20,014 nucleotides of DNA. Origin: a virus. The notes below the pieces were generated by a model that was not told the origin of the DNA, searched no databases, and saw only the letters and a program-made list of their open reading frames with translations. Where the stretch lies: positions 1 to 20,014 of the IMG/VR virus record IMGVR_UViG_3300030109_001549; one strand, given 5' to 3'. This document shows, one piece after another, positions 2,398 through 19,919 of this stretch (within the stretch, counting starts at the first letter, position 1; each line of letters opens with the position of its first letter). The position numbers were made by a program, and so were the translations under genes.

Positions 2398-2416
2398 AAT
2401 TTTAAATTTTTAATTG

Positions 2417-3622: not shown

Positions 3623-3639
3623 AATATAATATAATAATA

Positions 3640-3647
3640 GTTAATAA
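3640..3647 (-). promoter_or_regulatory. TTATTAAC upstream element of the scaffold-like gene
   Basis: On the minus strand TTATTAAC ends exactly 17 bases before the ATG at 3622. The spacer is an AT-only string ending ATTATATTATATT. The next gene to the left (1-807) has a closely similar string in the same place, which suggests a shared expression signal. Confidence 0.4.
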
Positions 3648-3651
3648 ATTT

Positions 3652-6072: not shown

Positions 6073-6077
6073 ATTTA

Positions 6078-8566: not shown

Positions 8567-9101
8567 ATTTGATTGTAATAAAATTAGATAAAACTCGATA
8601 TAGTCTTTCATTGTCAACAATAAACTCGTATTCACTGCTTGGTCTAAAACCAACTAAATCATTAACTTCAACTGTACCGTCCGAATACTTAACTACACCC
8701 TGTAAAGGTTTTTCAGATTTAATATTAAATTGATCTACAGCTTTTAAAGGCTTAACAAAACAATAACCTTTTGGAGCAATCCACTCTTTGTTTCTTTTGT
8801 ATAAAAAAATTTGATCATTGTTTATAAGGTAAGTAGACTCATTAAAATAAGCTCTGCTGTTTTTTTCTACACCTTTTATATTATGCCATCTACGAAAAAC
8901 ATTGTGATGTACTATGACAGTATCACCTGGTTTTATATCTGTATCACCTACTATTGGAGTTGATATAACAATAGCCTCTCTATTAACATATTGATGATTG
9001 AAAATTTCAGTATTAAGTATTAACTCTGAGTCTCCAACCTTTTTAGTATTGTTATATCTTTGCCCTTTTGGTGTTACAACAAAGTTGTAAACACTCTTCA
9101 T
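8511..9101 (-). CDS. Possible double GroES-like barrel protein
   Basis: A 196-residue protein that I do not recognise by family name, but whose pattern resembles chaperonin-10 twice over. The first half (about 5-118) has a strand FVVTPKG, a loop with hydrophobic residues (SELIL), then NREAIVISTPI, IKPGDTVIVHHNVF and a terminal pair of strands NNDQIFLYKR and GYCFVKP. The second half (about 133-180) has LQGVVKYSDG, VEVNDLVGFRPSSEYEFIVDNERLYRVLSNFITIKYE, laid out like the end of GroES (GD.V.F....S....ID...Y.V....ILA). Its start shares one base with the preceding stop (TAATG). It sits beside the terminase genes while a true groES and groEL lie 5 kb away in the same operon. A head assembly or co-chaperonin role is inference; a simple virion beta-barrel is the alternative. 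Confidence 0.45.
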   Translation of the reverse strand: MKSVYNFVVTPKGQRYNNTKKVGDSELILNTEIFNHQYVNREAIVISTPIVGDTDIKPGDTVIVHHNVFRRWHNIKGVEKNSRAYFNESTYLINNDQIFLYKRNKEWIAPKGYCFVKPLKAVDQFNIKSEKPLQGVVKYSDGTVEVNDLVGFRPSSEYEFIVDNERLYRVLSNFITIKYEYQGNEETYNPSWAQSS

Positions 9102-9322
9102 TAGTATTCTAAATTATACTCTACAGATACAGCCATGTTTTTGTTAAAGTCCTTCCAAGGTAAAACATCTTTATTTTTTTTAATATAAATAGAAAACTTA
9201 TCGTCTTCTTCTATTATATCGCAAATAGTATGCCCACCATAAACCTCTTGCCCAACAGCATAATGCATAGCGTCGTTTTTGTAGTCTTTACCTACACTAA
9301 TCTTCCTTATTAACTTCGCCAT
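9101..9322 (-). CDS. Small phage protein, 73 residues
   Basis: A 73-residue hypothetical protein beginning MAKLIRKISVGKDYKNDAMHYAVGQEVYGGHTICDIIEED. The segment VGQEVYGGHTICDIIEEDDKFSIYIKK suggests a small beta-rich domain with alternating hydrophobic residues, in which a GQEVYGG turn precedes two strands. No transmembrane segment or catalytic motif is visible. It overlaps the previous gene by 26 bases and its stop shares a base with the next start (TAATG), so translation of the three genes is probably coupled. It lies in the head/packaging cluster, but no function can be assigned. Confidence 0.65.
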   Translation of the reverse strand: MAKLIRKISVGKDYKNDAMHYAVGQEVYGGHTICDIIEEDDKFSIYIKKNKDVLPWKDFNKNMAVSVEYNLEY

Positions 9323-9593
9323 TTTCTTTTTGATAATTTATAGTACCATCTTGAATATTAATATCAGCAGTACCGTACTCTTTTTCAAACTCTTCTTGTT
9401 TTTTAGATAAAGTTTCTTGATGCCCAGCAACTATGTGTAATAAGTGGTGTTTTTTCGTTTCTAAAATACCCATATCCATTTGAGCTCTATTTATACTATT
9501 AACAACATCTTGTATTTCTTTTAGTTGCTCTTCTGAAATTTTTTCAGGTTTTAAGTCTACGATTTTTTCTTTTTTTGTTTTTGTTTTTGCCAT
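9297..9593 (-). CDS. Coiled-coil protein, 98 residues
   Basis: A 98-residue hydrophilic protein. Residues 1-15 are lysine-rich (MAKTKTKKEKIVD), and residues 18-75 look like a coiled coil or helical hairpin (ISEEQLKEIQDVVNSINRAQMDMGILETKKHHLLHIVAGHQETLSKKQEEFEKEYG). The C-terminal tail holds a short DINIQDGTINYQKE beta-like segment. Small proteins of this shape are frequent in marine phage structural clusters and usually unnamed. It starts a run of overlapping small genes that leads into the terminase. Its upstream region has a weaker form of the TTAAC element about 15 bases before the ATG. Function unknown. Confidence 0.68.
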   Translation of the reverse strand: MAKTKTKKEKIVDLKPEKISEEQLKEIQDVVNSINRAQMDMGILETKKHHLLHIVAGHQETLSKKQEEFEKEYGTADINIQDGTINYQKENGEVNKED

Positions 9594-9625
9594 GTTTATT
9601 TAATTTAAGTTAATTTTAATTTGTT

Positions 9626-10390
9626 TTAATATTCTAATCCAAGTTGTAAATTAATTGGATTTTTAAGCATAAGCTCTTCTGTGTGGTCTATTTGTGCGCT
9701 AACATTTTTTACTGTCATTGTTGTTGCGCTGTCTACGGAAACAACTTCCATTTCAACTGTATCCGTATGACCTATTACTATATCACCAGGTTGGAATACA
9801 GTTCTAGGATCTGTTCCAGATGTTGTAATTTGTACGGCTGCTGTAGATGCGGCTTGATTACCAGACATATCAAGATCTACTTCTGTGCTATAACTTTGTG
9901 CCGCGCCGTGCGCTAAACCTGCTACGTATATTGTTTGAAAACCTTTTCTAGTTACATGAGGTTCTCCTTGTAAATAAAGCTGAAAACCTCCATCGCCAAC
10001 ATGATCAGCACTAGCAGATTGACCACCTATAGTTATTACATTATAAGTAAGATCTGCTACGTTAGTTGCGGATGCGTCAATAAAAATTTGTCCTATTATA
10101 TTTCTTCTAAACGCAGCAGCTATTGTAGCTGATGTAGCAGCATGTACTGTTCCAAATGTAGCTGGTGCGGCTCCATCTATACTTTTTGCAAAGAAAAGCT
10201 GAAAATCAGCAGCATTACCAGTGCTACCATCTATACCAATAATAGTGCCTTGAATTGTTTTTAATACGCAAGTACCCGAAGGTATTTCAATTGGTGTCCA
10301 ATCAAACAGTATATCATTACCACCAGACGCAGCTCTAAACAATACGTTAATATCTGGTTTCAGTGTTGCTAAATTGTATTTTGAATGCAT
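9626..10390 (-). CDS. Virion-like protein, 254 residues
   Basis: A 254-residue Ala/Gly/Thr/Ser-rich protein with a strong beta-strand pattern and no signal peptide or membrane segment. The N-terminus (MHSKYNLATLKPDINVLFRAASGGNDILFDWTPIEIPSG) leads into repeated strands such as TIQGTIIGIDGS, FQLFFAKSIDG and NIIGQIFID. The C-terminal third contains FQPGDIVIGHTDTVEMEVVSVDSATTMTVKNVSA, a PGD.V.I...T..E.EV..V.S.TT.TV pattern common in phage head-decoration and tail proteins. It lies between the membrane (lysis) genes and the packaging genes. A structural role such as decoration, head-tail or tail component is likely by composition and place; the exact part cannot be named. Confidence 0.68.
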   Translation of the reverse strand: MHSKYNLATLKPDINVLFRAASGGNDILFDWTPIEIPSGTCVLKTIQGTIIGIDGSTGNAADFQLFFAKSIDGAAPATFGTVHAATSATIAAAFRRNIIGQIFIDASATNVADLTYNVITIGGQSASADHVGDGGFQLYLQGEPHVTRKGFQTIYVAGLAHGAAQSYSTEVDLDMSGNQAASTAAVQITTSGTDPRTVFQPGDIVIGHTDTVEMEVVSVDSATTMTVKNVSAQIDHTEELMLKNPINLQLGLEY

Positions 10391-10394
10391 AGTT

Positions 10395-10787
10395 TTATTT
10401 TTTTACTTTTTCAAATGATCGACCACCAAAATAAGCTCCGATCACTGTTATTAATACTAATTGAAGTAAATCAACCCATGATGATTTAACTTCAAACTTT
10501 AATGCACCAGCGTCTATAAATATTAATAGCATGGTGCATACTATTAAAAATATTAATGTCATAGGCCTAACGTTTTTACTAAGCCATGAATCTGATTTTA
10601 AATCTGCTTCCCAACGAGATGTAATGTTCTTTTCCATTTCAATCTCATAGTTAGCTATTAGTTCTTTTACTTTTCTTTCTGCTTCTAGCTTTTCTTCTTT
10701 TGATGTAGTTAAATTATCTATAACTCCACCTACGTTCTTTACCAAGTCTCCAGCACCAGAAGAGAATATTTTTCCTATTATACTCAT
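10395..10787 (-). CDS. Holin of the 3TM type
   Basis: A 130-residue membrane protein. Residues 1-70 are amphipathic/charged, with an N-terminal SIIGKIFSSGAGDLVKNVGGVIDNL segment and a helix EEKLEAERKVKELIANYEIEM. Then comes the hallmark SWLSKNVRPMTLIFLIVCTMLLIFIDAG (about 67-94), followed by a second hydrophobic stretch WVDLLQLVLITVIGAYFGGRSFEKVKK (about 104-130). The W-L-x-x-x-x-R-P-x-T-L motif before the membrane segments and the closing G-x-Y-x-x-x-R-x-x-E-K are characteristic of the gene-transfer-agent/phage 3TM holin family. Holins form lesions in the inner membrane that release or trigger the cell-wall lytic enzyme. A second small membrane protein is encoded immediately before it, 6 bases away. 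Confidence 0.72.
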   Translation of the reverse strand: MSIIGKIFSSGAGDLVKNVGGVIDNLTTSKEEKLEAERKVKELIANYEIEMEKNITSRWEADLKSDSWLSKNVRPMTLIFLIVCTMLLIFIDAGALKFEVKSSWVDLLQLVLITVIGAYFGGRSFEKVKK

Positions 10788-10793
10788 TTAATT

Positions 10794-11006
10794 TTATTTT
10801 TTTGCAAACTTTTCTAATCCGCTTATACCAAAACACCCTAGCACAACAAACACAAAAGAATCGTATACAAATTCATTAATTACCAGATCTTTACCCGTAT
10901 AACCAGTGGCAAGATCCATTATCATTATTACACACATTATTGCAAATGCAATAAATCCTACTATAGATTTTTCGTTCCAGTCGTTATTATCTTTAAATAT
11001 GTTCAT
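10794..11006 (-). CDS. Small two-helix membrane protein, possible lysis partner
   Basis: I chose MNIFKDNNDW at 11006 as the start (70 residues). The ATG-AAC-ATA-TTT-AA junction overlaps the previous stop by 14 bases, and the upstream extension to 11051 would run deep into that gene. Two hydrophobic segments are visible, SIVGFIAFAIMCVIMIMDLATGY (about residues 13-35) and EFVYDSFVFVVLGCFGISGLEKFAKK (about 44-70). The protein ends in a short positively charged tail. Its position directly before the 3TM holin suggests a pinholin, antiholin or lysis accessory protein. The family is not certain, and a simple inner-membrane phage protein is the alternative. Confidence 0.62.
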   Translation of the reverse strand: MNIFKDNNDWNEKSIVGFIAFAIMCVIMIMDLATGYTGKDLVINEFVYDSFVFVVLGCFGISGLEKFAKK

Positions 11007-11427
11007 GACCATTGCTAATATTTGCTTCTTTTTCCCAAGGAAAATCATCATCTCCTGCAGGTTTCCATTTACCGTCTACCAATATAGAATCAACGCCGTT
11101 TACGTCTTTTCTTAAAAACATATCGCCGTTATATAACACATAGTCATCTGTGTAAGCTAGTCTACCGATTTTCATATCAGTAGCATGTTTCATTTCGTGA
11201 TTTACAACCTGTCTTTCTTCAAAACTACCTGGTTCTATTTTATTACTAATATATATACTACCGTCCATATTAGCTTCACCAAGTATTCCTTCTGCTAAAG
11301 GTTTTCTAATAACAGGTGTTCCAGGTACAGACGCATCACCACCAGCTTCTTGACCAAAACGCATTTTAGTTTTAATCTCACCTCTTGTAGCTTCTAAACC
11401 TCTATTTGTACCTAGTTTAAATCCCAT
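10993..11427 (-). CDS. Candidate zinc metallopeptidase with HExxH motif
   Basis: I place the start at 11427 (MGFKLGTNRG, 144 residues), because the previous stop codon reads TAA-A-ATG at this point; a longer frame to 11511 would overlap the neighbour by 83 bases. Residues 73-81 are QVVNHEMKH, containing HEMKH (77-81), a HExxH zinc-binding motif inside a helix. A downstream acidic cluster FPWEKEA (E132 or E134) could supply the third zinc ligand as in gluzincin-type peptidases. The N-terminal third is basic and glycine-rich and may be disordered. The gene lies next to two membrane proteins of the lysis type, so roles include virion protease, wall or host-protein degradation. It is too short to be a complete classical endolysin, and substrate cannot be inferred. 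Confidence 0.58.
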   Translation of the reverse strand: MGFKLGTNRGLEATRGEIKTKMRFGQEAGGDASVPGTPVIRKPLAEGILGEANMDGSIYISNKIEPGSFEERQVVNHEMKHATDMKIGRLAYTDDYVLYNGDMFLRKDVNGVDSILVDGKWKPAGDDDFPWEKEANISNGHEHI

Positions 11428-11428
11428 T

Positions 11429-11653
11429 TTAAAATGTTTTTTTCGTTTTGTGTTTTGATTGAAATTTTGGATCTTCTGTATAATTTTTTTGACTTCTACC
11501 ATGACTAACAATGTTGTCTAATAAAGAATCTAGAGGTTTAATTATTGTGCGGTCACTAGCAGCTTTTTTCATCATATCACCAATACGTTTAGCACCGTTT
11601 ATTTTCATTGGTGACTTCATTTTAAATGGAGTTTTATTTGTTTTTATTTTCAT
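11429..11653 (-). CDS. Small basic protein, 74 residues
   Basis: A 74-residue lysine-rich protein (MKIKTNKTPFKMKSPMKINGAKRIGDMMKKAASDRTII then KPLDSLLDNIVSHGRSQ). The N-terminal KTPFKMKSPMKI segment resembles the K-M-K-S-P-M-K repeats of other small basic phage proteins, such as the one at 16425-16649. Its start overlaps the preceding stop as ATGA, and its stop is followed one base later by the peptidase start, so the three genes are translationally linked. No domain is recognised. DNA or RNA binding is plausible from charge only. Confidence 0.62.
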   Translation of the reverse strand: MKIKTNKTPFKMKSPMKINGAKRIGDMMKKAASDRTIIKPLDSLLDNIVSHGRSQKNYTEDPKFQSKHKTKKTF

Positions 11654-12090
11654 CTATCTTTATCTTTAATCATATCATCTATAGCTTTATTATAAACTTT
11701 GTCTGTATATGATTTGTTATTAAAAAATATACTACGATCAGATGTTGGTAAGTCTTCTTCACCTAAAAGTATTCTGTATATTCTACTTATCATTTGAGAG
11801 CATTTAAAAGAGGTTTTAAACACAGAGTACATAATAGTAGTTCTATTACGATGCCTCCAAGTTTCTATCCAACCTGCTTTTCTAAGCCTCTCCCATCTTG
11901 CTTTATCCCATGAGTATGTGTAAACTCCGTTGATAAAATCGTTTCGTGTAAATCTTCCTTTACAATCTAAATAAATTAATAATTCTAAGTCTGCGTCTTT
12001 TAACCCGTAAGTTTTACAGACCCATTTTCTAGTGAGCCTGTAATACTTAAGGATATTTAATTCACGCAAATCTTGCGCGGTTAATCTCAC
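11650..12090 (-). CDS. Winged-helix-like phage protein
   Basis: A 146-residue protein with the look of a winged helix-turn-helix. It begins with helix LTAQDLRELNILKYYRLTRKWVCKTYGL (about 3-30), then LKDADLELLIYLDCKGRFTRNDFI (helix and turn, 30-55), SWDKARWERLRKAGWIETWRHRNRTTIMYSVFKTSFKCSQMISRIYRILLG (65-115), where RKAGWIETWRHRNRTTIMYSVF resembles recognition helix plus beta wing of MarR-type proteins. The C-terminal part is charged and polar. In marine phages proteins of this type are often found among structural genes, so it may be a virion or DNA-binding protein rather than a classical repressor. The start lies 3 bases after the previous stop. Confidence 0.58.
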   Translation of the reverse strand: MRLTAQDLRELNILKYYRLTRKWVCKTYGLKDADLELLIYLDCKGRFTRNDFINGVYTYSWDKARWERLRKAGWIETWRHRNRTTIMYSVFKTSFKCSQMISRIYRILLGEEDLPTSDRSIFFNNKSYTDKVYNKAIDDMIKDKDR

Positions 12091-12093
12091 TTA

Positions 12094-12435
12094 TTAGCCT
12101 AAAGTGATATTAAGTGCTGTACTAGAGTCAATACATCCTAAGTCACGAAGTTTTTTACTATAAACAGCATTGTCTTCGTCCATGAATATAACTAACTCTC
12201 CACTATCGTCTGATAAAGCATCCGCTAATGCCTCACAAATTGATTTGAATTTACCTGTTACATGCGTAACTAGTATATCATCGTCAGCAGCTGTACCAGC
12301 TTGAGCTTTAAATGATATTCTTGTTGTTGTATCACTAACAGGATCCACACCAGTAAAAGTAGACGCTGGATAAACACAGCAATCACCGGCCGCGTCAGCG
12401 CCTAAGTTTTCTGCAAAATATAAGTATGTTTCCAT
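12094..12435 (-). CDS. Tandem paralogue 3 of a small virion-like protein family
   Basis: A 113-residue protein, the last translated of three adjacent related genes. Shared features are the N-terminal YLYFAEN, the block PASTFTGVDPVSDTTTRISFKAQAGTAADD, then a TH.TGK segment, and a helix SICEALADALSDD. It has an unusual CC pair at about residues 19-20 (GDCCVYPAS), where the other copies have SCM or AM. The Ala/Ser/Thr/Asp-rich, beta-strand-like composition fits a small head or tail surface protein. Its upstream region carries TTATTAAC exactly 17 bases before the ATG. Paralogy is visible by eye; the virion role is inference. Confidence 0.65.
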   Translation of the reverse strand: METYLYFAENLGADAAGDCCVYPASTFTGVDPVSDTTTRISFKAQAGTAADDDILVTHVTGKFKSICEALADALSDDSGELVIFMDEDNAVYSKKLRDLGCIDSSTALNITLG

Positions 12436-12452
12436 TTTGATTTGTTTTTAAA

Positions 12453-12460
12453 GTTAATAA
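12453..12460 (-). promoter_or_regulatory. TTATTAAC element before tandem paralogue 3
   Basis: Minus-strand TTATTAAC lies directly after the stop of the previous paralogue and exactly 17 bases before the ATG at 12435. It is one of the best-conserved members of the minus-strand series of such elements. Confidence 0.4.
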
Positions 12461-12796
12461 TTAAGCAACAGTAGCTATTGCTACGCTAGTAATTTTTTTG
12501 CTATTAGGTAAGTTTCCAATTGAGCTACCGCTTTCTCCATCATGCACTATCAAAAAAGGATTTCTTTGATTAGCTTGCATAAATTTAACCATTTCTGTCA
12601 TGAAAACTTTTGGTGTTGTACCAGTGTGAGTTACCGTTACAACATCGTCAGCCGCAGTTCCATTTCTAGCTTGAAAATGCATAGTTGTTGTAGAGCTACT
12701 CGCAGGTGTCATACCTAAAAACGAAGATAAAGCAAACATACAAGACTCTCCTGTAGTTGCAACATCATCTTCTCCGAAATAAAAATATCTTTCCAT
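12461..12796 (-). CDS. Tandem paralogue 2 of a small virion-like protein family
   Basis: A 111-residue protein beginning MERYFYFGEDDVATTGESCMF. It shares with its two neighbours the opening Y-F/L-Y-F, the central block SSFLGMTPASSSTTTMHFQARNGTAADD and the VTHTGT stretch. It has diverged most in the C-terminal half, where a basic helix VFMTEMVKFMQANQRN replaces the acidic helices of the others. Divergence after duplication, with all three kept intact, implies distinct but related roles, for example alternative decoration proteins. Stop and next start are separated by a 25-base A/T spacer. No membrane or signal segment. Confidence 0.65.
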   Translation of the reverse strand: MERYFYFGEDDVATTGESCMFALSSFLGMTPASSSTTTMHFQARNGTAADDVVTVTHTGTTPKVFMTEMVKFMQANQRNPFLIVHDGESGSSIGNLPNSKKITSVAIATVA

Positions 12797-12817
12797 TTTT
12801 TTTTATTTTTTTTTAAA

Positions 12818-12825
12818 ATTAATAA
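12818..12825 (-). promoter_or_regulatory. TTATTAAT element before tandem paralogue 2
   Basis: Minus-strand TTATTAAT directly follows the stop of paralogue 1 and lies 21 bases before the ATG at 12796. The intervening leader is nearly pure A. It is the longest spacing of the series. Confidence 0.35.
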
Positions 12826-13173
12826 TTAAGCTATAGTTGTTACTTCAACAGTTCCAGTTAAACCAGCGCCGTTACCGTTATCTAAATAAACACTATTAGC
12901 CTCGTCTGCAACTACAATAAATTTAGTTCTTGTTACAGGGCTTGGCGCTAAAACAGATGCTATTAATTCAGCAACTTCTTTATGCTTTCCTGTAGCGTGT
13001 TGCAATAACACATCATCATCAACAGCTGTACCATTTCTAGCTTTAAAAGACAACCTAGTGGTTGTATTTGAGATAGGATCTAAACCTATAAAAGCACTAG
13101 CAGGATACATAGCACCCTCGCCAGTTGCCGCAGTAGAACTTAAATCCGCCTCTGTGAAATATAAATAATTCAT
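12826..13173 (-). CDS. Tandem paralogue 1 of a small virion-like protein family
   Basis: A 115-residue protein, the first of the three paralogues to be transcribed. The shared pattern is MNYLYFTEADL, then MYPASAFIGLDPISNTTTRLSFKARNGTAVDDD, LLQHATGKHKEVAELIASVLAP and a terminal strand region. It is closest to paralogue 3 in the P-A-S-x-F-x-G-x-D-P-x-S-x-T-T-T-R block. Composition suggests a soluble beta-rich structural protein. A 139-base gene-free spacer containing a stable hairpin lies upstream, and TTATTAAT lies exactly 17 bases before the ATG, so this gene probably begins its own expression unit. Confidence 0.65.
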   Translation of the reverse strand: MNYLYFTEADLSSTAATGEGAMYPASAFIGLDPISNTTTRLSFKARNGTAVDDDVLLQHATGKHKEVAELIASVLAPSPVTRTKFIVVADEANSVYLDNGNGAGLTGTVEVTTIA

Positions 13174-13190
13174 AATTTTTTAATTTTTTG

Positions 13191-13198
13191 ATTAATAA
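13191..13198 (-). promoter_or_regulatory. TTATTAAT element before tandem paralogue 1
   Basis: Minus-strand TTATTAAT ends exactly 17 bases before the ATG at 13173. Here it is not overlapped by a previous gene, which argues that the element itself is selected rather than being a by-product of stop codons. Confidence 0.4.
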
Positions 13199-13257
13199 TT
13201 TGTTTGTTCGTTTTGAGTTTAAAGTTTGGAGGTTTACGGTTTAGGTTAATCTATTAG

Positions 13258-13287
13258 TACCACGCCACCTAAATAGATAGCGTGGTA
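13258..13287. other. 8-bp stem hairpin in the 139-base spacer
   Basis: TACCACGC (13258-13265) pairs perfectly with GCGTGGTA (13280-13287) around a 14-base loop. It is the only long stem in a spacer that is otherwise A/C-rich on the transcribed strand. A T-rich run follows on the plus strand, but no plus-strand gene precedes it; in the direction of the minus-strand genes no U-run follows. An mRNA-processing or stability hairpin, or an attenuator, is possible. Confidence 0.45.
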
Positions 13288-13312
13288 ATAATATTTTTGT
13301 TAAGCTAAGCTA

Positions 13313-13795
13313 TTATATGTTACTAAATATAGCTGCTCCAGTACCATCAGCATCTGCTGAAGCTACGTGACCAGATACCATAAATCTATTTGTTTCAACA
13401 TATATAATGTCAACGTAAGATCCTTGTTTTGCTTGGTTGTCATCTAAGTTAGTGTCAAGCGCTATTTGACTGTCGTCAGCAGCAGCCGCAGCGTAACCTT
13501 GAAAAACATTTGCTGTAGCATCAGCAATTATTTGATAGTTAACTCCTCCATCAAACATTTGATTTGTCGTGTCTGAACACTTAATAAGATAAGCGTTATC
13601 ATTATCTAGATTCATTAAGAATCTACAATGCCAGCCAAATTCAATATCAGCGTCAGCAGGCAACGTAATTGCCATAGCCGATGCACTTTGAAGTACAAAC
13701 GTTTTGCCAGAATCACTAGCTAAACATTGATAAGCAGAAACACCTGAATCTAATGTGTGGATGTTTTCTCTTGTGTTAAAAAATACTCTTCCCAT
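13313..13795 (-). CDS. Virion-like protein, 160 residues
   Basis: A 160-residue protein, MGRVFFNTRENIHTLDSGVSAYQCLASDSGKTFVLQSASAMAITLPADADIEFGWHCRFLM at the start by segments: a strand-rich N-terminal domain in which SGKTFVL and AITLPADADIEFGWHCRF look like beta strands. It then has Ala/Asp-rich loops (YAAAAADDSQIALDT) and a final strand segment GSYVDIIYVETNRFMVSGHV. This 'SGKTF.L..A.A.TITLP' arrangement is common in phage decoration or fibre-associated proteins. It is encoded downstream of groES, so the chaperonin pair and virion proteins share a transcript. Exact role not assignable. TTATTAAC lies exactly 17 bases before the ATG. Confidence 0.66.
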   Translation of the reverse strand: MGRVFFNTRENIHTLDSGVSAYQCLASDSGKTFVLQSASAMAITLPADADIEFGWHCRFLMNLDNDNAYLIKCSDTTNQMFDGGVNYQIIADATANVFQGYAAAAADDSQIALDTNLDDNQAKQGSYVDIIYVETNRFMVSGHVASADADGTGAAIFSNI

Positions 13796-13812
13796 TTTTA
13801 ATAATTTTTTTA

Positions 13813-13820
13813 GTTAATAA
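13813..13820 (-). promoter_or_regulatory. TTATTAAC element before the 160-residue virion-like gene
   Basis: Minus-strand TTATTAAC lies exactly 17 bases before the ATG at 13795, in a 62-base spacer after groES. The spacing equals that of three other members. Confidence 0.4.
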
Positions 13821-13857
13821 TTAGTTTAAGTTCGCTGTTACTGGGTTGTGGTAACAA

Positions 13858-14115
13858 CTAGCATACTAAAATGACGTCTCCATCACGAATAACTCTATAA
13901 AGAGTATCTTGCCACGAAATATCGTGCCCAGCATGTTTGTCGTAATATATCGTGTCTCCGTTGTTCAACCCTTCAACTAAGTTGCCACACGATATTATAT
14001 TTGCTTTTATATAACGGTTATCTACATCTGTATCATCCGTCATTATAAGACCAGCAACCTTTTTAGGTTCTGTCTTTATATTTTTTATTATTATATATCT
14101 ATTAATTGCTTTCAT
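13858..14115 (-). CDS. groES: GroES-type co-chaperonin
   Basis: An 85-residue chaperonin-10. The N-terminal strand KAINRYIIIKNIK leads to a mobile loop (about residues 15-28, EPKKVAGLIMTDD) carrying a hydrophobic tripeptide LIM, the equivalent of the IVL that binds the GroEL apical domain. Then come YIKANIISCG, GLNNGDTIYYDKHAGHDISWQDTLYRVIRDGDVILV, matching the GD-strand and the C-terminal D-I-L strand of GroES. It is slightly shorter than the usual 95-97 residues, and the roof loop region is short. The start overlaps the stop of groEL by 14 bases, so the two are translated together, in the order groEL then groES. It would cap the phage GroEL, and perhaps the host GroEL, to fold capsid proteins, as T4 gp31 does. 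Confidence 0.85.
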   Translation of the reverse strand: MKAINRYIIIKNIKTEPKKVAGLIMTDDTDVDNRYIKANIISCGNLVEGLNNGDTIYYDKHAGHDISWQDTLYRVIRDGDVILVC

Positions 14116-15676
14116 TCATTCTCATGTTTGAAATTACACAATTTGCAGATATTATTGTTGAAACTACGCTTACCGCGTTTTTAAGTGCTGACTTAGTTAC
14201 AAGTACTGGATCTATTATTCCTTCTTTGATCATGTCAACTTCTTTACCAGTTACAACGTCTACACCTTCACCTTCCATTTTACTCCATTGTTTACCATCG
14301 TCTGGATATTCAATACTAGCATTATCTAATATAGTTTTGAAAGGAGCTTGAATAGCTTTAAGTAGTATCTCTTCACCACCCGCTTTAGCGGTGATTTTTG
14401 CAGAAGCGTCCATTAGCGCAACTCCACCACCAGGTACTATACCTTCTTTTAAAGCAGCTTTAGTAGCGTAAATAGCGTCTTCTACTCTATCTTTCTTCTC
14501 TTTCATCTCAACTTTAGAATTAGCACCTACCTTAACCATACCTACTGAACCTGATAGCATTGCTAACCTTTGTCTGTGTTTCTTTTGTATAAACGGGTTT
14601 TTCTCCCATTTATCTATAGTTTTCTTAATACTCTCTATTCTTTCTTTCATTTCGTCTTCTGGAGTATCTATAGTTAATACAGTATTTTTGTCATCTGTAA
14701 TTGCAGTATAAGCTTCACCTAAACAATCAACGTCGATTAAATCAAGATCATCACCTAGTTGTTCGTTTATTACTTTTGCTCCAACTAAAAAAGCAAGATC
14801 TTCAACTGTATCTTGTTTAGTAGGACCAAAGCCTGGTAAGTCAACTATATTAACTTTTATATTACCTTTTACCTTATTCATAAGAAGAGCAGCTTTTACT
14901 TGTTGGTCTACTGGAGCCACTATAAGTAGTGGTCGTTTAGTCTTTATAACGTGTTCTAATACTGTCTGTATTTTTCTTATGTTTGGTATTTCTGAAGATA
15001 CTATTAATACTAATGGGTTTTCAAGCTCACATATCTGCTTGTCCTTATCAGTAATAAAATGTGGGGATGTGAGTCCTGAGTCTATCTGTACGCCATCTAC
15101 AACTTCAACGTATGTTTCTTCAGTTGGTGACTCTTCCATTAATACCACACCATCTTTACCTACTTTAGTATAAGCTTCTGCTATAATCTTTCCTAGCTCG
15201 TTATCATTGTTACAACTAATCGAACTAACAGATTCCAGCATATCGCCCTCGATCTTGACAGAAATCTTATCTAGGTAATCGTTTACCTTTTTAAGTCCGG
15301 ATTTTATACCGTCTTTTATTTCTCTTGTGTTAACATCACTTGTGTTAACTTCTTTTATTAGTGCTTCAGCAAGGACGGTAGCTGTAGTAGTACCATCACC
15401 TGCTTCTCTCACTGTATTTCTAGCAGCTTCTTTAATTAGTGTTGCTCCCATGTTTTCCACCGGGTCAAATAAGACTACGCTTTCTGCTACGGTTACTCCA
15501 TCTTTTGTTATGACCGGGTTTCCACGCGCGTCCTCGTATATTACGCACTTACCAGAAGCACCTAATGTTGATTTTACTGCTTGAGCTAGCTTTTCAACGC
15601 CAGCTATTACTTTATCTTTGGCTTTTTTGCCAAAATTGAGATCTTTTACAATCTCACTTGGTTGATTGTATTCCAT
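14102..15676 (-). CDS. groEL: GroEL-type chaperonin
   Basis: A 524-residue chaperonin-60, near the family length of about 545. Key motifs are present: STLGASGKCVIYED (37-49), ITKDGVTVAE with D59, GDGTTTATVLAE (93-104, D94), and VEDAIYATKAALKEGIVPGGGVAL (398-421) with the ATP-hydrolysis aspartate at D400. The apical domain shows VDGVQIDSGLTSPHF and GNIKVNIVDLPGFG. ATPase function therefore looks intact. Deviations are ASGK in place of the usual GPKG, and a C-terminus ending in MRMNESN without the GGM repeats of many bacterial GroELs. This is a phage gene by context, inside the virion operon, and probably helps fold the capsid or the virion proteins encoded beside it. Confidence 0.93.
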   Translation of the reverse strand: MEYNQPSEIVKDLNFGKKAKDKVIAGVEKLAQAVKSTLGASGKCVIYEDARGNPVITKDGVTVAESVVLFDPVENMGATLIKEAARNTVREAGDGTTTATVLAEALIKEVNTSDVNTREIKDGIKSGLKKVNDYLDKISVKIEGDMLESVSSISCNNDNELGKIIAEAYTKVGKDGVVLMEESPTEETYVEVVDGVQIDSGLTSPHFITDKDKQICELENPLVLIVSSEIPNIRKIQTVLEHVIKTKRPLLIVAPVDQQVKAALLMNKVKGNIKVNIVDLPGFGPTKQDTVEDLAFLVGAKVINEQLGDDLDLIDVDCLGEAYTAITDDKNTVLTIDTPEDEMKERIESIKKTIDKWEKNPFIQKKHRQRLAMLSGSVGMVKVGANSKVEMKEKKDRVEDAIYATKAALKEGIVPGGGVALMDASAKITAKAGGEEILLKAIQAPFKTILDNASIEYPDDGKQWSKMEGEGVDVVTGKEVDMIKEGIIDPVLVTKSALKNAVSVVSTIISANCVISNMRMNESN

Positions 15677-15704
15677 ATTTAATTAAATTTAAGTATATTT
15701 GAGT

Positions 15705-15998
15705 TTATTCGAAAGTTTTTACAACCTTTGGGCCTTTTGTAGCCTCTAGTTTTTTAGCAAAATGATCAACGCTACCATTTATAGCAGCTTCAGCACCTTC
15801 TATTGTCTCTCTACGAGTAATATCATGCCAGTTTTTATCATTTTCTGGATTTGAAACCTCTGTTTGGTAAAAACCATTAGGTAATTGCGTTATCCTCCAG
15901 TTCTTTTTGTCTGCAAGATGTTGCCACTGCTCAATAGTTTTTTCGTTAGGTTTTTGGTTGCCAGTAATTGTACTGGTCTTGTAATACAAATAAGTCAT
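15705..15998 (-). CDS. Small phage protein, 97 residues, upstream of groEL
   Basis: A 97-residue protein starting MTYLYYKTSTITGNQKPNEKTIEQWQHLADKKNWRITQLPNGFYQTEV by segments. The opening M-x-Y-L-Y-Y recalls the M-x-Y-L-Y-F start of the three tandem paralogues, but the rest does not align. The middle has NWRITQLPNGFYQTEVSNPENDKNWHDITRRETIEGAEAAI, which could be a small mixed alpha/beta domain; the C-terminus has a helix SVDHFAKKLEATKG. It precedes groEL by 28 bases. A virion component or a chaperonin substrate are guesses from position. TTATTAAC lies 14 bases before the ATG. Confidence 0.65.
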   Translation of the reverse strand: MTYLYYKTSTITGNQKPNEKTIEQWQHLADKKNWRITQLPNGFYQTEVSNPENDKNWHDITRRETIEGAEAAINGSVDHFAKKLEATKGPKVVKTFE

Positions 15999-16012
15999 AA
16001 TTTTGGTTTTAG

Positions 16013-16020
16013 GTTAATAA
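16013..16020 (-). promoter_or_regulatory. TTATTAAC element before the 97-residue gene/groEL
   Basis: Minus-strand TTATTAAC lies 14 bases before the ATG at 15998, in a 51-base spacer. If it is promoter-like it would drive the 97-residue gene, groEL and groES together. Confidence 0.35.
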
Positions 16021-16049
16021 TTGTTTAAATTGGTATAGGTTTCCCTATT

Positions 16050-16424
16050 TTATTCTCCGCACTTTTTAGAAGGATCATCTACCCTTCTCCAGTCTTCTTT
16101 TTTAAACCAGTCGCGGAGTGTAGCACCTTTTTTACGAGCGCCTTTTACGTTTGTTTTTGAAGAACGTCTATATTTGCCTTTTGCTCCAGCTGATTTTTTA
16201 GCATCAACAAGCTTTTTTCTTTGCTCTTTACTCATACTGCGTATTTTATCAGCTGGTAAACATGTTTTAGTAGTTCCACCGCCTTTTTGTTTTTTCTTTT
16301 TAGCTATAGGAGAAGCTTTTACACAACTACCTTTACTAAACTCTGCTGTTCCAGGTTTTCTTTTATAACCCTTCCAACAAGGTAGCGGACTATCTTTAGC
16401 AAGTTTAGACTTTATGTCGTACAT
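16050..16424 (-). CDS. Basic Cys-containing phage protein, 124 residues
   Basis: A 124-residue, strongly basic protein. The N-terminal segment LPCWKGYKRKPGTAEFSKGSC (about 14-34) is a motif I recognise from small basic proteins of marine phages. A KKKKQKGGG linker leads to TCLPADKIRSMSKEQRKKLVDAKKSAGAKGKYRRSS, and the C-terminus has LRDWFKKEDWRRVDDPSKKCGE. Four cysteines (C16, the one near 33, the one at about 55, and the last at about 122) could be metal- or disulfide-linked. It is encoded one base boundary after the KKAAMK protein (TAA-ATG). Roles such as DNA compaction or packaging accessory are inferred from charge. Confidence 0.66.
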   Translation of the reverse strand: MYDIKSKLAKDSPLPCWKGYKRKPGTAEFSKGSCVKASPIAKKKKQKGGGTTKTCLPADKIRSMSKEQRKKLVDAKKSAGAKGKYRRSSKTNVKGARKKGATLRDWFKKEDWRRVDDPSKKCGE

Positions 16425-16649
16425 TTACTTTTTCTTCATCTTTAGTTTCATAGCAGAAACTTTTTTCATTTTCATTGCTGCTTTTTTCATCATCATTACT
16501 GAATCTTTTTTAAGCTTCATTGCAGCTTTTTTCATTTTAGTAGCAGATAATATTTCTTTTTTAAGATTTTCAGGCAGTCTATCTTGTTTTCCAACTAAAG
16601 CTTTTTTAGCAGGAGATTTTTTTGCCATTTTTGCGGGTGCTTTTTTCAT
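16425..16649 (-). CDS. Lysine/alanine/methionine-rich histone H1-like repeat protein
   Basis: A 74-residue protein of very simple composition: K, A and M make up most of it, with segments APAKMAKKSPAKK, TKMKKAAMKLKKDS, MKKAAMKMKKVSAMKLKMKKK. It resembles the C-terminal tail of histone H1 and bacterial lysine-alanine-rich nucleoid proteins, and similar repeat proteins are common in marine phage genomes. It has no membrane or enzymatic motif. The most likely property is electrostatic binding of DNA or RNA, possibly packaged with the genome. Its stop is followed at once by the next start (TAAATG), and its start lies one base after the PAP2 stop (TAA-A-ATG). Confidence 0.68.
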   Translation of the reverse strand: MKKAPAKMAKKSPAKKALVGKQDRLPENLKKEILSATKMKKAAMKLKKDSVMMMKKAAMKMKKVSAMKLKMKKK

Positions 16650-16650
16650 T

Positions 16651-17175
16651 TTAAGTTTGTTTAATATGTTTATACATTGATTTTCCTAGTTTGTTACCAA
16701 AGGTACTGTCGCTCTTATAATGAGCATGTGCCACGTTTCTACTGTCAGATATGTTTTTAGCTGTTTGCATAAATGCAGAGCTTTTACCATACTTATCTTT
16801 TAATACCGATGCTATCAGTATGCTTTGTGCAGAATGACCAGATGGATACGATGGTGTATTCATTGAATCCATTTTAACCTTACTTAAATTTTTATCTAAC
16901 TCGTAAGGTCTTGGTCTATTGTGGTGTTTCTTTAGTTCTAATATTACAGGTGCAGAAGCTTTTATAAGTTTTTTAGCAATATTTTTATCGTAATCTTTAA
17001 CACCTTGCTCTTCCGCTGTCTTTTTAAATGCAGCTTCTATATTATCATACTTCTTAACAAAAGCTTTTTTTAAAGGTATTTTTTTAAGCGCTTTTATTTC
17101 TTGAGCCGTATCGAAACTATTATCACTAGGTGGTTTCATTTTTTTAAAGCTTGATATATCAAAGTCTTTAAACAT
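16651..17175 (-). CDS. Soluble PAP2/acid-phosphatase-family protein
   Basis: A 174-residue protein carrying the complete three-part phosphatase signature of the PAP2/class A acid phosphatase/haloperoxidase superfamily: K82-x6-R89-P90 (in KKHHNRPRP), P111-S-G-H114 (YPSGHSAQS), and S145-R146-x5-H152-x3-D156 (SRNVAHAHYKSD). The histidines H114 and H152 are the expected acid-base and nucleophile residues. No signal peptide and no transmembrane segment is visible, unlike most PAP2 lipid phosphatases, so a cytosolic substrate or virion location is possible. The N-terminus is basic. The gene sits in a block of very basic small proteins and shares one base with the preceding stop (TAATG). Substrate unknown: phosphate monoester, nucleotide or headgroup. 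Confidence 0.8.
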   Translation of the reverse strand: MFKDFDISSFKKMKPPSDNSFDTAQEIKALKKIPLKKAFVKKYDNIEAAFKKTAEEQGVKDYDKNIAKKLIKASAPVILELKKHHNRPRPYELDKNLSKVKMDSMNTPSYPSGHSAQSILIASVLKDKYGKSSAFMQTAKNISDSRNVAHAHYKSDSTFGNKLGKSMYKHIKQT

Positions 17176-17417
17176 TACTTTTTCTTTTTCTTACCACCAC
17201 CAAATTTACTTGGACCACCAGCTCTAGTACATCTTACACCCCAACCAGAAGCATAAGCACTAGGCCATACTTTAAATTTACGTTTAGCCGCTGATTTACA
17301 TGCAGCTGATATTTTTTTAAGTGCGGAGCTTTTTTTCATTTTATTTGGATTACCTTTACCACCATCGGCTTTACTAGCCCATACAGCTTTTCTTTGTGCA
17401 TCTGATTTATATGGCAT
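17175..17417 (-). CDS. Small basic protein with VWPSAYASG motif
   Basis: An 80-residue protein: MPYKSDAQRKAVWASKADGG at the N-terminus, then a lysine-rich helix ALKKISAACKSAAKRKF, the conserved-looking KVWPSAYASGWGVRCTRAGG, and a poly-lysine tail (KKKKK). The motif PSAYAS followed by a basic stretch is one I know from small basic proteins of marine phages and large eukaryotic viruses (DUF5872-like). The function of that family is not established. Its start has an A/T leader, and its stop shares a base with the PAP2 gene start. Confidence 0.7.
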   Translation of the reverse strand: MPYKSDAQRKAVWASKADGGKGNPNKMKKSSALKKISAACKSAAKRKFKVWPSAYASGWGVRCTRAGGPSKFGGGKKKKK

Positions 17418-17428
17418 AATTATTTATT

Positions 17429-17824
17429 TTAACATTTCCATCTACGTCTAGCAGCTTTACCTCTTTCACCGGTCCAACCTTTTGATCTAGCGCAGAATGA
17501 TTTTCTACGTTTAGCAGCTTTACTACCTGGTTTAACTTTACCAGTTACTGCTGTTTTTAATTTACTACCTGGATTTTTACGTTTATACTCCGCAACACCT
17601 TTAGCTGTCATCCCAGCACCTTCTTTTACAGTACGGAAGTTTCTACCTTTACCTTTAGTAGTTTTTCTAGGTTCATTACTTTTTTTACGTTTCTTTTTAA
17701 ATAAAGGTGAACCGTCATTTCTACGTCTACCACAACTAGTAACAGGGAAAGGATTACCTTCCTGCGTATATTGTTTTATAGGTGATGCTTCAAACATGTC
17801 GTTTTGTGCTTTACTTCCTGGCAT
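17429..17824 (-). CDS. Basic phage protein with EGAGMTAKGV motif
   Basis: A 131-residue, very basic protein. The stretch VKEGAGMTAKGVAEYKRKNPGSKLKTAVTGKVKPGSKAAKRRKSFCARSKGW (about 68-118), given here in segments, is highly conserved in marine phages as I remember it: EGAGMTAKGV, NPGSKLKTAVTGKV and RRKSFCARS. The N-terminal part is Pro/Gly-rich, with MPGSKAQNDMFEASPIKQYT. The C-terminal end is extremely arginine/lysine-rich (GERGKAARRRWKC). No enzyme motif is visible. Its start shares one base with the preceding stop (TAATG). A nucleic-acid-binding or virion-internal role is inferred from charge and company. Confidence 0.7.
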   Translation of the reverse strand: MPGSKAQNDMFEASPIKQYTQEGNPFPVTSCGRRRNDGSPLFKKKRKKSNEPRKTTKGKGRNFRTVKEGAGMTAKGVAEYKRKNPGSKLKTAVTGKVKPGSKAAKRRKSFCARSKGWTGERGKAARRRWKC

Positions 17825-18060
17825 TAGCTTTCTTTTTTAGTTCCTTTACCGTCGTTACCTCTATTAGCTTTAACAGATTTAAACCTACCATCTTTGTGAT
17901 CATAGTCCTTACCTTTTATATTCTTACCAGCCTTGATAGCAGCTCGTCTTTTACGTTGGTTCTCTGCTTTCTTTTTCTTTCTTGCAAATGTTTTAGCAAA
18001 CGCTAAATCTCTTTTCTTTTTAGCAGCACTTGCTTTAGGTGATAGTTTCTGTTTAGCCAT
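17824..18060 (-). CDS. Basic phage protein with DYDHKDGRF motif, first gene of the minus-strand module
   Basis: A 78-residue, lysine-rich protein. It has MAKQKLSPKASAAKKKRDLAFAKTFARKKKKAENQRKRRAA as a helical basic N-terminal half (given by segments) and KGKDYDHKDGRFKSVKANRGNDGKGTKKE as C-terminal half. The DYDHK-x-G-x-F-x-SV-x-x-NRGN pattern is familiar from other marine phage basic proteins. It is the most upstream gene of the late module and lies next to the divergent gene-free region, so its leader should contain the module's first promoter. Coupling to the next gene is by TAATG. Function unknown; nucleic-acid contact is likely from charge. Confidence 0.7.
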   Translation of the reverse strand: MAKQKLSPKASAAKKKRDLAFAKTFARKKKKAENQRKRRAAIKAGKNIKGKDYDHKDGRFKSVKANRGNDGKGTKKES

Positions 18061-18228: not shown

Positions 18229-18308
18229 CACCTCCAAAACTGTGACACTTGCCTGTTACTCTCCTTATATTAATAGCCTAATGTCACATAATATGTATAG
18301 CATTTCTT

Positions 18309-18349
18309 ACAAACTAAATACGGAACAGTATGGATAATATATATGTAAC
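18309..18349 (+). promoter_or_regulatory. Phage-type promoter copy 1 (ACAAACTAAATACG-N8-TGGATAAT)
   Basis: ACAAACTAAATACG (18309-18322), 8 bases, TGGATAAT (18331-18338), then TATATATGTAAC. The GATAAT inside it would be a -10-like hexamer, predicting a start near 18345 and a short leader before the ATG at 18368. All five copies in this module keep the 8-base spacing. Confidence 0.6.
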
Positions 18350-18367
18350 AAATAAAATAAATAAATT

Positions 18368-18529
18368 ATGAAATACGAAATAGAAATCTCACTAAATCAC
18401 GAATTCGAAACATTATATCATACATTCAACGATTTAACTAAAATCAATGAAGAATTAGAATACATAATGAATCTTGAAGAAAAACTACCAATGAATCTAA
18501 TTACTCAAATAAGAATTTACACAATATAA
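18368..18529 (+). CDS. Small acidic protein, 53 residues, first plus-strand gene
   Basis: A 53-codon frame beginning MKYEIEISLN and ending ITQIRIYTI. It is short, but has a proper context: promoter copy 1 lies just upstream, the leader AATAAATAAATT before the ATG is a typical A/T initiation region of this genome, and promoter copy 2 begins within its last codons. The peptide has alternating hydrophobic residues at both ends (YEIEISL and TQIRIYTI) and a helical acidic middle (LTKINEELEYIMNLEEKL), consistent with a small beta-alpha-beta fold. No homologue is recognised. Real coding is likely but not proven. Confidence 0.55.
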   Translation: MKYEIEISLNHEFETLYHTFNDLTKINEELEYIMNLEEKLPMNLITQIRIYTI

Positions 18530-18561
18530 ATACGAGTTATATTGGATAATATAAATGTAAC
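18521..18561 (+). promoter_or_regulatory. Phage-type promoter copy 2
   Basis: ACAATATAAATACG (18521-18534), 8 bases, TGGATAAT (18543-18550), then ATAAATGTAAC. The upstream box overlaps the stop codon of the 53-residue gene. No protein gene of any length follows before copy 3, so the transcript would be an untranslated leader or small RNA. Confidence 0.58.
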
Positions 18562-18660
18562 AAAACTAACAAATGTAAATTAAATTACAATTGTGAATTG
18601 AGAGAAGTGGCGCAATAACACTAGTAACTGAAATAACTAATAAACAAATTGCATACCTTT

Positions 18661-18700
18661 ACAAACTTAACACGAATGTAAATGGATAATAAAAATGTGT
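18661..18700 (+). promoter_or_regulatory. Phage-type promoter copy 3
   Basis: ACAAACTTAACACG (18661-18674), 8 bases, TGGATAAT (18683-18690), then AAAAATGTGT. It lies upstream of the 79-residue gene (ATG 18737) and is the least conserved copy in the first box. Confidence 0.55.
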
Positions 18701-18736
18701 ATAAATAAAATGTTTAACTAAATAAAAATTAAAATT

Positions 18737-18976
18737 ATGAAAAATGTATTAAATGTATTAAAAAGCAAAAGATTTGTAGTAAGAAAGTCACTAATTGGTA
18801 AAAATCAAATTATAACTTTCACTAACAAAAAAGGTGATGAAATCACTTACAATCACGACAAAGTATTTGAAATAATGAAAGATACTTTAACTAACTTACC
18901 ATGCTGGACAAAGTATAAGTCATACACGGCAACTAATAACATACCAATGATTTGTAGAGGTAAAGAGTTAGTATAG
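18737..18976 (+). CDS. Small basic protein, 79 residues
   Basis: A 79-residue protein (MKNVLNVLKSKRFVVRKSLIG, then NQIITFTNKKGDEITYNHDKVFEIMKDTLTNLPCW). A positively charged N-terminal helix is followed by a beta-hairpin-like region and a helix, with two cysteines near residues 56 and 73. No signal peptide. The leader AATAAAAATTAAAATT before the ATG fits the genome's style, and promoter copy 3 lies 37 bases upstream of it. Position in the plus-strand module with small genes suggests an early-expressed host-interaction or regulatory protein, without recognised homology. Confidence 0.62.
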   Translation: MKNVLNVLKSKRFVVRKSLIGKNQIITFTNKKGDEITYNHDKVFEIMKDTLTNLPCWTKYKSYTATNNIPMICRGKELV

Positions 18977-19156
18977 CCAAAAGCAGAGTCAAAATAGCTC
19001 CATGTGAAGTGCTGAGTAGCACAGAGTGACTCAAGTCGTAGTTACACTTTGTTTAGCGACTTATAAAAAATGCGAACAAGTAGACTAGGTAGAAAGGCGG
19101 CCGAATAATCGAGTGGGTTCAAGTCCCACACTACCACTAACAAATAAATTAAAACT
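18977..19156 (+). ncRNA. Structured noncoding stretch with tRNA-like T-arm
   Basis: About 180 bases without a gene, in which several stems are visible: GTGCT/AGCAC with loop GAGT (19009-19022), AAGTCG/CGACTT (19033-19038 with 19057-19062), and the T-arm GTGGG-TTCAAGT-CCCAC (19113-19129). The T-arm matches the tRNA GGTTCAAGTCC box exactly. It is flanked by GGTAG (19088-19092) and CTACC (19131-19135), forming an acceptor-like stem; alternatively AGTCGTAGT (19034-19042) pairs with ACTACCACT (19130-19138) with one mismatch. I could not build a canonical cloverleaf: no D-loop GG or anticodon arm fits. It may be a minimal tRNA-like RNA, a decayed tRNA, or an attachment core copied from a host tRNA end. 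Confidence 0.4.
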
Positions 19157-19363
19157 ATGTGTAAATTTGAAAGAACTTTAAACAAAATCTATTTAATAAG
19201 CGGTTTTATACTGTTAATAGTAGTAATAATGTGTATGACTTCTTGCGGTAGCGCAAACTATGTCACTAGTTGTCCTGCTTATGCAAATGTTGAAACTCAC
19301 CAACAATTACAAGCAATGTCTAGTGATAGCTCAAATTGTGAAAATTGCGACGAGATTGACTAA
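19157..19363 (+). CDS. Small lipoprotein, 68 residues
   Basis: A 68-residue protein with a clear export signal: a short basic N-terminus (MCKFERTLNK), a hydrophobic core IYLISGFILLIVVIMCM (about 11-27) and a lipobox MTSC-GS with the lipidated cysteine at about residue 30. The mature part is only about 39 residues, contains VTSCPAYANVETHQQL and a CENCD pair near the end, and is acidic. Lipobox plus a short cysteine-containing C-P-A-Y tail resembles small lipoproteins of Bacteroidota. A phage gene in an early-type module that makes a surface lipoprotein could block superinfection by related phages, but that is inference. Its leader follows the tRNA-like element directly. Confidence 0.66.
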   Translation: MCKFERTLNKIYLISGFILLIVVIMCMTSCGSANYVTSCPAYANVETHQQLQAMSSDSSNCENCDEID

Positions 19364-19377
19364 TTTCGTTGCTATAC

Positions 19378-19416
19378 ACAAACTAAATACGATTACTAAT
19401 GGATAATAATGTAAAT
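19378..19416 (+). promoter_or_regulatory. Phage-type promoter copy 4
   Basis: ACAAACTAAATACG (19378-19391), 8 bases, TGGATAAT (19400-19407), then AATGTAAAT. The start of transcription would be about 11 bases before the ATG at 19425, giving a very short leader. Confidence 0.58.
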
Positions 19417-19424
19417 ATAAAATT

Positions 19425-19682
19425 ATGAAACAAATAAAAATTACTAAATATGAAGGCAACACTCATTACAGTGTATATGTGATCGATAGCTTCGGTACTT
19501 GTCACCATATTGGCTATGAAAGCACGCTCGATAACACTATATTAGCTAAAATTGAGCAAAAAGCTTGTGATATTTGGGCTAGCGAGCAGGCTCCATGTCC
19601 AAAACAAGAGCTAGAAGCAAGAGCTATCAAAGAAATGATAGATATAGATATAAAAAATGGTATAACTCCAAGTTTAGACTAA
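19425..19682 (+). CDS. Small soluble protein, 85 residues
   Basis: An 85-residue protein (MKQIKITKYEGNTHYSVYVIDSFGTCHHIGYESTLDNTIL at the start, by segments), with a beta-rich N-terminal half (YSVYVIDSFGTCHHIGYES) and a helical C-terminal half (AKIEQKACDIWASEQAPCPKQELEARAIKEMIDIDI). Cysteines occur at about residues 27, 48 and 58. No membrane segment or signal is visible. Its stop shares the bases TAATG with the next gene, so the two are probably translated together. No family recognised; the position after promoter copy 4 marks it as an early-type gene. Confidence 0.64.
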   Translation: MKQIKITKYEGNTHYSVYVIDSFGTCHHIGYESTLDNTILAKIEQKACDIWASEQAPCPKQELEARAIKEMIDIDIKNGITPSLD

Positions 19683-19903
19683 TGGTAAGAAATATAATAT
19701 TTGCAATAGCGTTACTAATATTTGTTAATTGGCTACTAAATTTAGCTAGAATTAATGAATTAAAACGTGAAATAGATCAAATAGAAGTAGAAAATGAATA
19801 CTTACAACAGCAAATTACTATTAAAAGAAGTCATATAGATAGTTTAGAAAGAGCGATAATAGATACAATGTGGAAATACAAACACAAATTAAATACGAAT
19901 TAA
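19682..19903 (+). CDS. Membrane-anchored coiled-coil protein, 73 residues
   Basis: I chose the ATG at 19682 (MVRNIIFAIALLIFVNWLLNLARINELKREIDQIEVENEYLQQQITIKRSHIDSLERAII by segments) rather than an upstream ATG at 19595. The 19682 start forms a TAATG junction with the preceding gene, and the upstream 29 residues are shadow coding inside that gene. One transmembrane helix (about residues 4-21) is followed by a coiled coil with heptad-like spacing (about 24-60) and a basic tail. The topology, N-terminal anchor plus coiled coil, resembles FtsL/DivIC-like division proteins and inner-membrane spanins. An effect on host division or a lysis role is possible, but neither can be shown. Confidence 0.6.
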   Translation: MVRNIIFAIALLIFVNWLLNLARINELKREIDQIEVENEYLQQQITIKRSHIDSLERAIIDTMWKYKHKLNTN

Positions 19904-19919
19904 GTTGGATAATATAAAT
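19884..19919 (+). promoter_or_regulatory. Phage-type promoter copy 5 with almost no leader
   Basis: ACAAATTAAATACG (19884-19897), 8 bases, TGGATAAT (19906-19913), then ATAAAT followed by the ATG at 19920. If GATAAT is the -10 box, transcription would begin at or next to the start codon, making the transcript leaderless. Confidence 0.55.

Follow-up and report, generated by a model that had tools for sequence, protein, structure and literature searches.

A two-part element that occurs five times in the window, the stretch of 20,014 nucleotides of viral DNA analysed here, is a predicted promoter class of a large uncultured clade of marine flavobacterial phages with relatives in Pervagoviridae and Elemovirus. 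On sequence grounds we regard it as almost certain that the five copies are promoters, and it is very probable that the class is phage-specific. The genes behind the motif would be early ones, judging by the layout of the genomes. As to what reads these promoters, the balance tips slightly toward a phage-encoded sigma factor acting on the host core RNA polymerase.

Five copies of the motif in the window

The window, 20 kb of a tailed-phage genome, is a fragment and stops short of any sigma gene. It carries a structural arm (Table 1) and a plus-strand arm of very short genes that starts at about 18300. The terminase, portal and capsid proteins place it near MW202828, Elemovirus, Maribacter phage Panino and Cellulophaga phage phi38:1 (Pervagoviridae), and its terminase is 64% identical to that of MW202828. 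The nearest complete relative, L420 (79% in TerL), has the sigma gene described below and six copies of the motif.

The original prediction had listed five pairs of elements, each with a gap of 8 bases and all before plus-strand units. All five pairs were recovered at the expected places, with a gap of exactly 8 bases between ...ACG and TGGATAAT in each. When both strands of the window were searched with 3 mismatches allowed, these five copies were the only matches and none was on the minus strand; 100 dinucleotide shuffles of the window gave a mean of 0.02 matches and a maximum of 1. No convincing gene in the window contains any of the copies. The Bacteroidota box TAnnTTTG is absent from all five, in agreement with the earlier statement that they are not promoters of that type.

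Table 1 Features of the window; promoters and +1 positions are putative
Feature	Position	Strand	Details
Structural (late) arm	886..18060	-	Major capsid protein, portal, terminase, GroES-like, GroEL and others; zero motif copies
46-bp imperfect palindrome, GTGACA..AGCC/GGC..TGTCAC	18242..18287		Divergent early/late intergenic region
Promoter copy 1	18309..18338	+	-35 ACAAAC, accessory TAAATACG, -10 GATAAT; putative +1 at G 18345; leader of about 23 nt to ATG at 18368
53-aa ORF	18368..18529	+	Behind promoter 1
Promoter copy 2	18521..18550	+	Putative +1 at G 18557; upstream member of a tandem pair before the 79-aa gene
Promoter copy 3	18661..18690	+	Putative +1 at G 18697; leader of about 40 nt to ATG at 18737
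79-aa first early protein	18737..18976	+	Homologue in 10 of 10 motif genomes compared, 0 of 4 references
Promoter copy 4	19378..19407	+	Putative +1 at A 19414; leader of about 11 nt to ATG at 19425
85-aa ORF	19425..19682	+	Behind promoter 4
Promoter copy 5	19884..19913	+	Putative +1 at A of ATG at 19920, i.e. leaderless

The gene behind copy 5 encodes a small CxxC zinc-ribbon-like protein, with a zinc-ribbon homologue in ORF20 of G012. A fold search with the 79-aa protein gave no significant match. No tRNA or Rfam feature was found in window positions 18050-19300; a tRNA-like 3' half (gtgggttcaagtcccacactaccac) at 19066-19140 was rejected as a tRNA by ARAGORN and Rfam. Other repeated elements were seen in the relatives. 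In MW202828 (L114 43749-50744 and beyond), the closest annotated relative, a perfect 16-bp palindrome, GTGTCGTTAACGACAC, occurs about 14 times over the early arm, mostly in intergenic positions, and may be a repressor operator or another repeated site. In phi38:1 and Panino (L113, L117), AAACACTATCA is found shortly upstream of many early-arm start codons and looks like a translation-start signal.

The motif recurs on the early arm of a phage clade

Exact matches to a stricter pattern of the motif were found in 107 IMG/VR stretches. Twenty whole records of 60-80 kb carry 5-12 copies each, almost all on one strand, and a reversed control pattern gave 1 match in total over the same 20 records. 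A profile scan of ten assembled genomes returned about 80 matches, nearly all intergenic, which lie on the strand opposite the structural genes and are grouped where the short-gene arm begins. Across 30 genomes, mostly full-length, 207 sites are on the strand that carries the sigma gene (the early-arm strand) and 9 on the other, and 16 sites fall inside ORFs of at least 80 aa. The proposed search of related contigs thus found the motif to be recurrent, strand-biased and mostly intergenic rather than at random positions, and the ratio of 207 to 9 supports the prediction of a phage-specific promoter family before early-arm units only.

The profile scan found no copy in the cultured relatives phi38:1, elemoE, Panino and MW202828. 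Since the annotated phage collection contains neither a convincing copy of the motif (among 50,697 records) nor a close homologue of the sigma factor, the clade appears to be uncultured. No description of the motif was found in a literature search whose coverage leaves out most subscription journals.

Transcription start site and promoter layout

The logo built from 323 unique sites reads tACAAACTAAATACGA-N7-TGGATAATAtaaaTR. Among 189 first ORFs in the 30 genomes, an ATG that opens an ORF of at least 40 codons lies exactly 7 nt after GATAAT in 41 cases and upstream of that base in 3. An earlier set gave the same picture: in 53 of 339 unique sites the first such ATG follows the last T of GATAAT at a distance of 7 nt, and it almost never comes earlier. 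The base at this offset is A or G in 204 of the 207 sites, and a T precedes it in 81% of the logo sites. Because leaderless mRNAs amount to only 5.5% in Flavobacterium psychrophilum (PMC9723704), an excess of ATGs at a single offset would mark the start site. From the leaderless ATGs and the purine we infer that the base 7 nt after GATAAT is +1, consistent with the earlier placement of the start about 7 bases downstream of the motif.

With +1 so placed, GATAAT falls at -12 to -7 and ACAAAC at -36 to -31, separated by a spacer of 18. GATAAT matches TATAAT in 5 of 6 positions. The upstream element is constant and lies at the distance of a TTGACA-like -35 element (spacer 16-18), but its sequence is ACAAAC. 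An accessory AAATACGA box occupies -29 to -22 inside the 18-bp spacer, and an A at -6 follows the -10 element. The motif had been described as a poor match to the sigma-70 -35/-10 pattern; this description does not hold for its geometry, which is of the sigma70 type.

The consensus of individual phages, taken from sigma-bearing contigs, shows which parts are constant, except that these sites, gathered by anchoring on GATAAT, cannot show the conservation of those six bases. ACAAAC and GATAATA persist, while TACGA is changed to TACAA or lost in several phages, including six that lost the TACGA half and kept the remaining elements. In one small clade of four phages, -36/-35 is CG. The supposedly invariant 8-base spacing, exact as it is in the window, is therefore not the defining constant of the class, since the TACGA box degrades and ACAAAC-N18-GATAATA stays; the gap from TACG to TGGATAAT is a by-product, as two positions are fixed in the common form.

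A sigma factor accompanies the motif

A 252-aa protein encoded in all ten motif genomes and none of the four references, and later found in all 30 genomes, belongs to the sigma70 family by four tests. It matches Pfam regions 2 and 4 with E values of 2.5e-4 and 1.5e-4, both below the curated cut-offs, and PHROG 351 'RNA polymerase sigma factor' with an E value of 3e-19 over residues 32-241. A PDB profile search retrieved SigA (E 1e-8), and the sigma2 domain predicted by AlphaFold superimposes on solved sigma70 domains at 2.0-2.4 A over 97-99 residues. In the alignment from the PDB profile search, KR replaces the WW pair of region 2.3. Alternative sigma factors that need stringent promoters likewise do without this pair.

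A search of IMG/VR with the sigma factor alone gave 80 loci, and 67 of these have the motif on the same strand as the sigma gene (392 matches, versus 4 on the opposite strand). Twelve of the 13 loci without the motif have less than 2.2 kb upstream of the sigma gene; the remaining one, L347, carries GATAATA sites that are divergent. Strict motif matches occur in 35 of 43 records longer than 50 kb, and control matches in 0. Between most motif copies and the sigma gene, further down the same arm, there are kilobases of sequence; a copy stands directly before the sigma gene itself in L330, L346 and L361. The association is strong, but as a result of shared ancestry this co-occurrence is largely one evolutionary event. 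A phage polymerase or a phage sigma factor had been suggested as the reader. A sigma gene was found, and a phage RNA polymerase gene was not (24 records searched with PF00940); the phage sigma factor is favored for this reason.

Position -13 differs between phages

The base at -13 is uniform within a phage and may be any of the four letters between phages (0.80 vs 0.34 overall, z = 33). Sharing within a phage is next strongest at -23, -30 and -36/-35, with little or none at spacer positions -20 to -17; the phage-specific positions of the upstream box are -23, -24, -30 and -35/-36. Mapped on the sigma tree, -13 shows 20 changes (24.8 at random) and the box 17 (16.8 at random). After multiple tests, no association with -13 beyond chance was seen for sigma residues, for other early-arm proteins or for 45 gene families in 27 genomes. 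Either part of the specificity is read by another factor than those tested, or the tests are underpowered. Since -13 is shared by the promoters of one phage, differs between sister phages and has no counterpart in the neutral spacer positions, it could be a specificity letter. We tentatively put forward, as a possibility we rate well short of probable, that a fast-changing phage or host reader, which is neither the sigma factor nor a shared gene tested, sets the promoter code through this base. If true, a sigma70-style promoter would here be the basis of a T7-like promoter arms race.

Host-type promoters and other elements

In the four references, TAnnTTTG occurs 28 times in the late arm versus 3.7 expected and 13 times in the early arm versus 3.4 expected. 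The corresponding counts in the 30 motif genomes are 14 versus 19 expected and 32 versus 22 expected. The motif clade has lost the host TAnnTTTG box from its late arm, and the excess in its early arm is slight. The four relatives without the sigma gene have no motif and use the host box. Compared with the Bacteroidota sigma-A promoter (TTG ... TAnnTTTG), the motif shares the distance between its -10-type element and the putative start, as well as the expected hosts; unlike that promoter, it does without TAnnTTTG, a box whose frequency in the motif genomes is that expected by chance or close to it.

An AT-only box, TTATATTATA, was considered as a late promoter and is enriched before two structural genes (29 vs 1.3), but it abuts the ATG and for this reason looks like a translation signal. 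In nearly all motif genomes, two structural genes have the AT-only stretch TTATATTATATTATG immediately before the start codon (29 vs 1.3 expected; e.g. L154 near 19695 and L145 near 9343), at a place where relatives have a TATCTTTG promoter. It probably acts as a translation signal for genes with high expression.

The palindrome in the divergent intergenic region (Table 1) has the form GTGACA-nn-AGCC-(about 18)-AGTAAC-n-GGCT-nn-TGTCAC and is the second regulatory element of the clade. It recurs in about 24 of the 30 genomes over the start codon of a helix-turn-helix (HTH) gene, which is directly upstream of the sigma gene and overlaps it (e.g. L153 near 5877). Both palindrome and HTH gene are missing from L293, L327, L334 and L343. 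The palindrome is likely an operator or an RNA hairpin, and the simplest reading would be an operator by means of which the HTH protein regulates both the late arm and the operon to which it belongs. The HTH protein was also considered as the reader of the upstream box of the promoter; this idea was dropped, as the HTH gene and the separate palindrome are missing together.

Alternative readers of the motif

The promoters stand ahead of the arm's first genes, whose transcription needs something present at infection. They may thus be immediate-early promoters read by the host holoenzyme, through a host activator or a host sigma other than the TAnnTTTG reader, with the phage sigma serving other promoters; we consider this unlikely, though worth keeping in view. 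The variation at -13 that is unrelated to any phage gene would fit differences between hosts. Moreover, seven marine Bacteroidota genomes carry 1-2 genuine copies each, exact or near-exact, before chromosomal genes and with their own extended consensus, AAATACGAGAG-N4-TGGATAATAG, so that something in uninfected cells might read the motif. Against this, a copy with fewer than 3 mismatches occurs in two alone of 199 Flavobacteriaceae genomes, both already known, and no regulon is visible. The known flavobacterial promoter classes, namely TAnnTTTG, sigma54 and the ECF-type CGT box, do not match the motif either (PMC9723704). A scan of GTDB with AAATACGA-N7-TGGATAAT as a host promoter gave for the most part no more than chance predicts; there were 10-13 strong profile matches, some of them on phage contigs in bins.

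The genes behind the bacterial copies (L246/L280, L285, L268/L279, L213/L284, L161/L282, L233/L278, L215/L283 and L222/L281) encode, by eye, small secreted proteins, possibly a CAP-domain protein, and TerB-like proteins. These could be genes switched on by phage infection, cases of a captured promoter or members of a rare host class. No homologue of the sigma factor was found at E 0.1 in the seven copy-bearing genomes, in a search run without a positive control.

The uniformity of -13 within a phage and its switching between phages resemble the coevolution of promoter and polymerase, which is known in T7-like phages. Like T7-type promoters, the motif is a long conserved unit with several copies per genome and letters that are common within a phage. 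The possibility that these are promoters of a virion-carried or phage-encoded RNA polymerase, as in crAss-like phi14:2 or N4, nevertheless strikes us as quite unlikely. The clade does share a muzzle protein domain of the crAss type, and the virions of crAss-like phages contain an RNA polymerase (PMC10136315). However, the geometry of the motif is sigma70-like, with the conserved part at -37 to -6 compared with about -17 to +6 in T7-type promoters. No T7-type polymerase gene was found with PF00940 in 24 records, a search without a positive control in that no control genome gave a match either. The giant virion protein (about 2300-3350 aa; L155 16801-19467 and homologues) is poorly conserved over its first 1900 residues; its conserved C-terminal part of 900 aa contains a HAD-like motif (DFDDT, within VFDFDDTLA) and neither an RNA polymerase signature nor a family match.

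We also weighed whether a phage activator might redirect the host polymerase from the long box at -37 to -22 in the manner of T4 MotA/AsiA, without a phage sigma. T4 middle promoters, with a MotA box at -30 and a -10 element, similarly have a long box instead of a standard -35 and a canonical -10. The upstream box of the motif is 16 bp, longer than a -35 hexamer needs, and it contains the phage-specific positions given above; the HTH gene next to the sigma gene is absent from all four phages with CG at -36/-35. These four phages form one clade on the sigma tree, though, and thus represent a single event, and the HTH protein more plausibly reads the palindrome, which is gone in the same phages. 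Unlike in T4 middle promoters, the constant part here is ACAAAC at the exact -35 position, and the box nearer -26 is optional, its TACGA half having been lost in the six phages mentioned. An activator of this kind is in our view very improbable.

Discussion

We propose that the five copies would start transcription of the short-gene arm and that the host core RNA polymerase with the 252-aa phage sigma, encoded further down the same arm, is most likely what reads them. About a fifth of the promoters would drive leaderless mRNAs, the ATG being the start site itself, and the phage class would replace the host TAnnTTTG promoters that relatives keep. The first sigma molecules might come from low readout by the host enzyme, from a hidden host-type promoter or from sigma carried in the virion.

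Phage-encoded sigma factors with promoters of their own are known from Bacillus phage SPO1 (gp28 and gp34) and from T4 (gp55). As in those systems, near-identical promoters of the -35/-10 type are paired here with a phage sigma70-family protein that would redirect the host core polymerase. Unlike those promoters, the present class is found on the first short-gene arm and not on middle or late genes, its sequences differ, and it belongs to an uncultured clade in which the pairing is one of co-occurrence.

These results provide a promoter grammar, precise to the level of the putative start site, for a large uncultured group of phages that infect marine flavobacteria. They also supply a candidate cognate sigma factor in a phylum with unusual promoters of its own. 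The redirection of Bacteroidota RNA polymerase by a small phage sigma, the shedding of host-type promoters and the reader of the base at -13 are thereby opened to test, and the promoters could serve as markers of these phages and their early arms in metagenomes.
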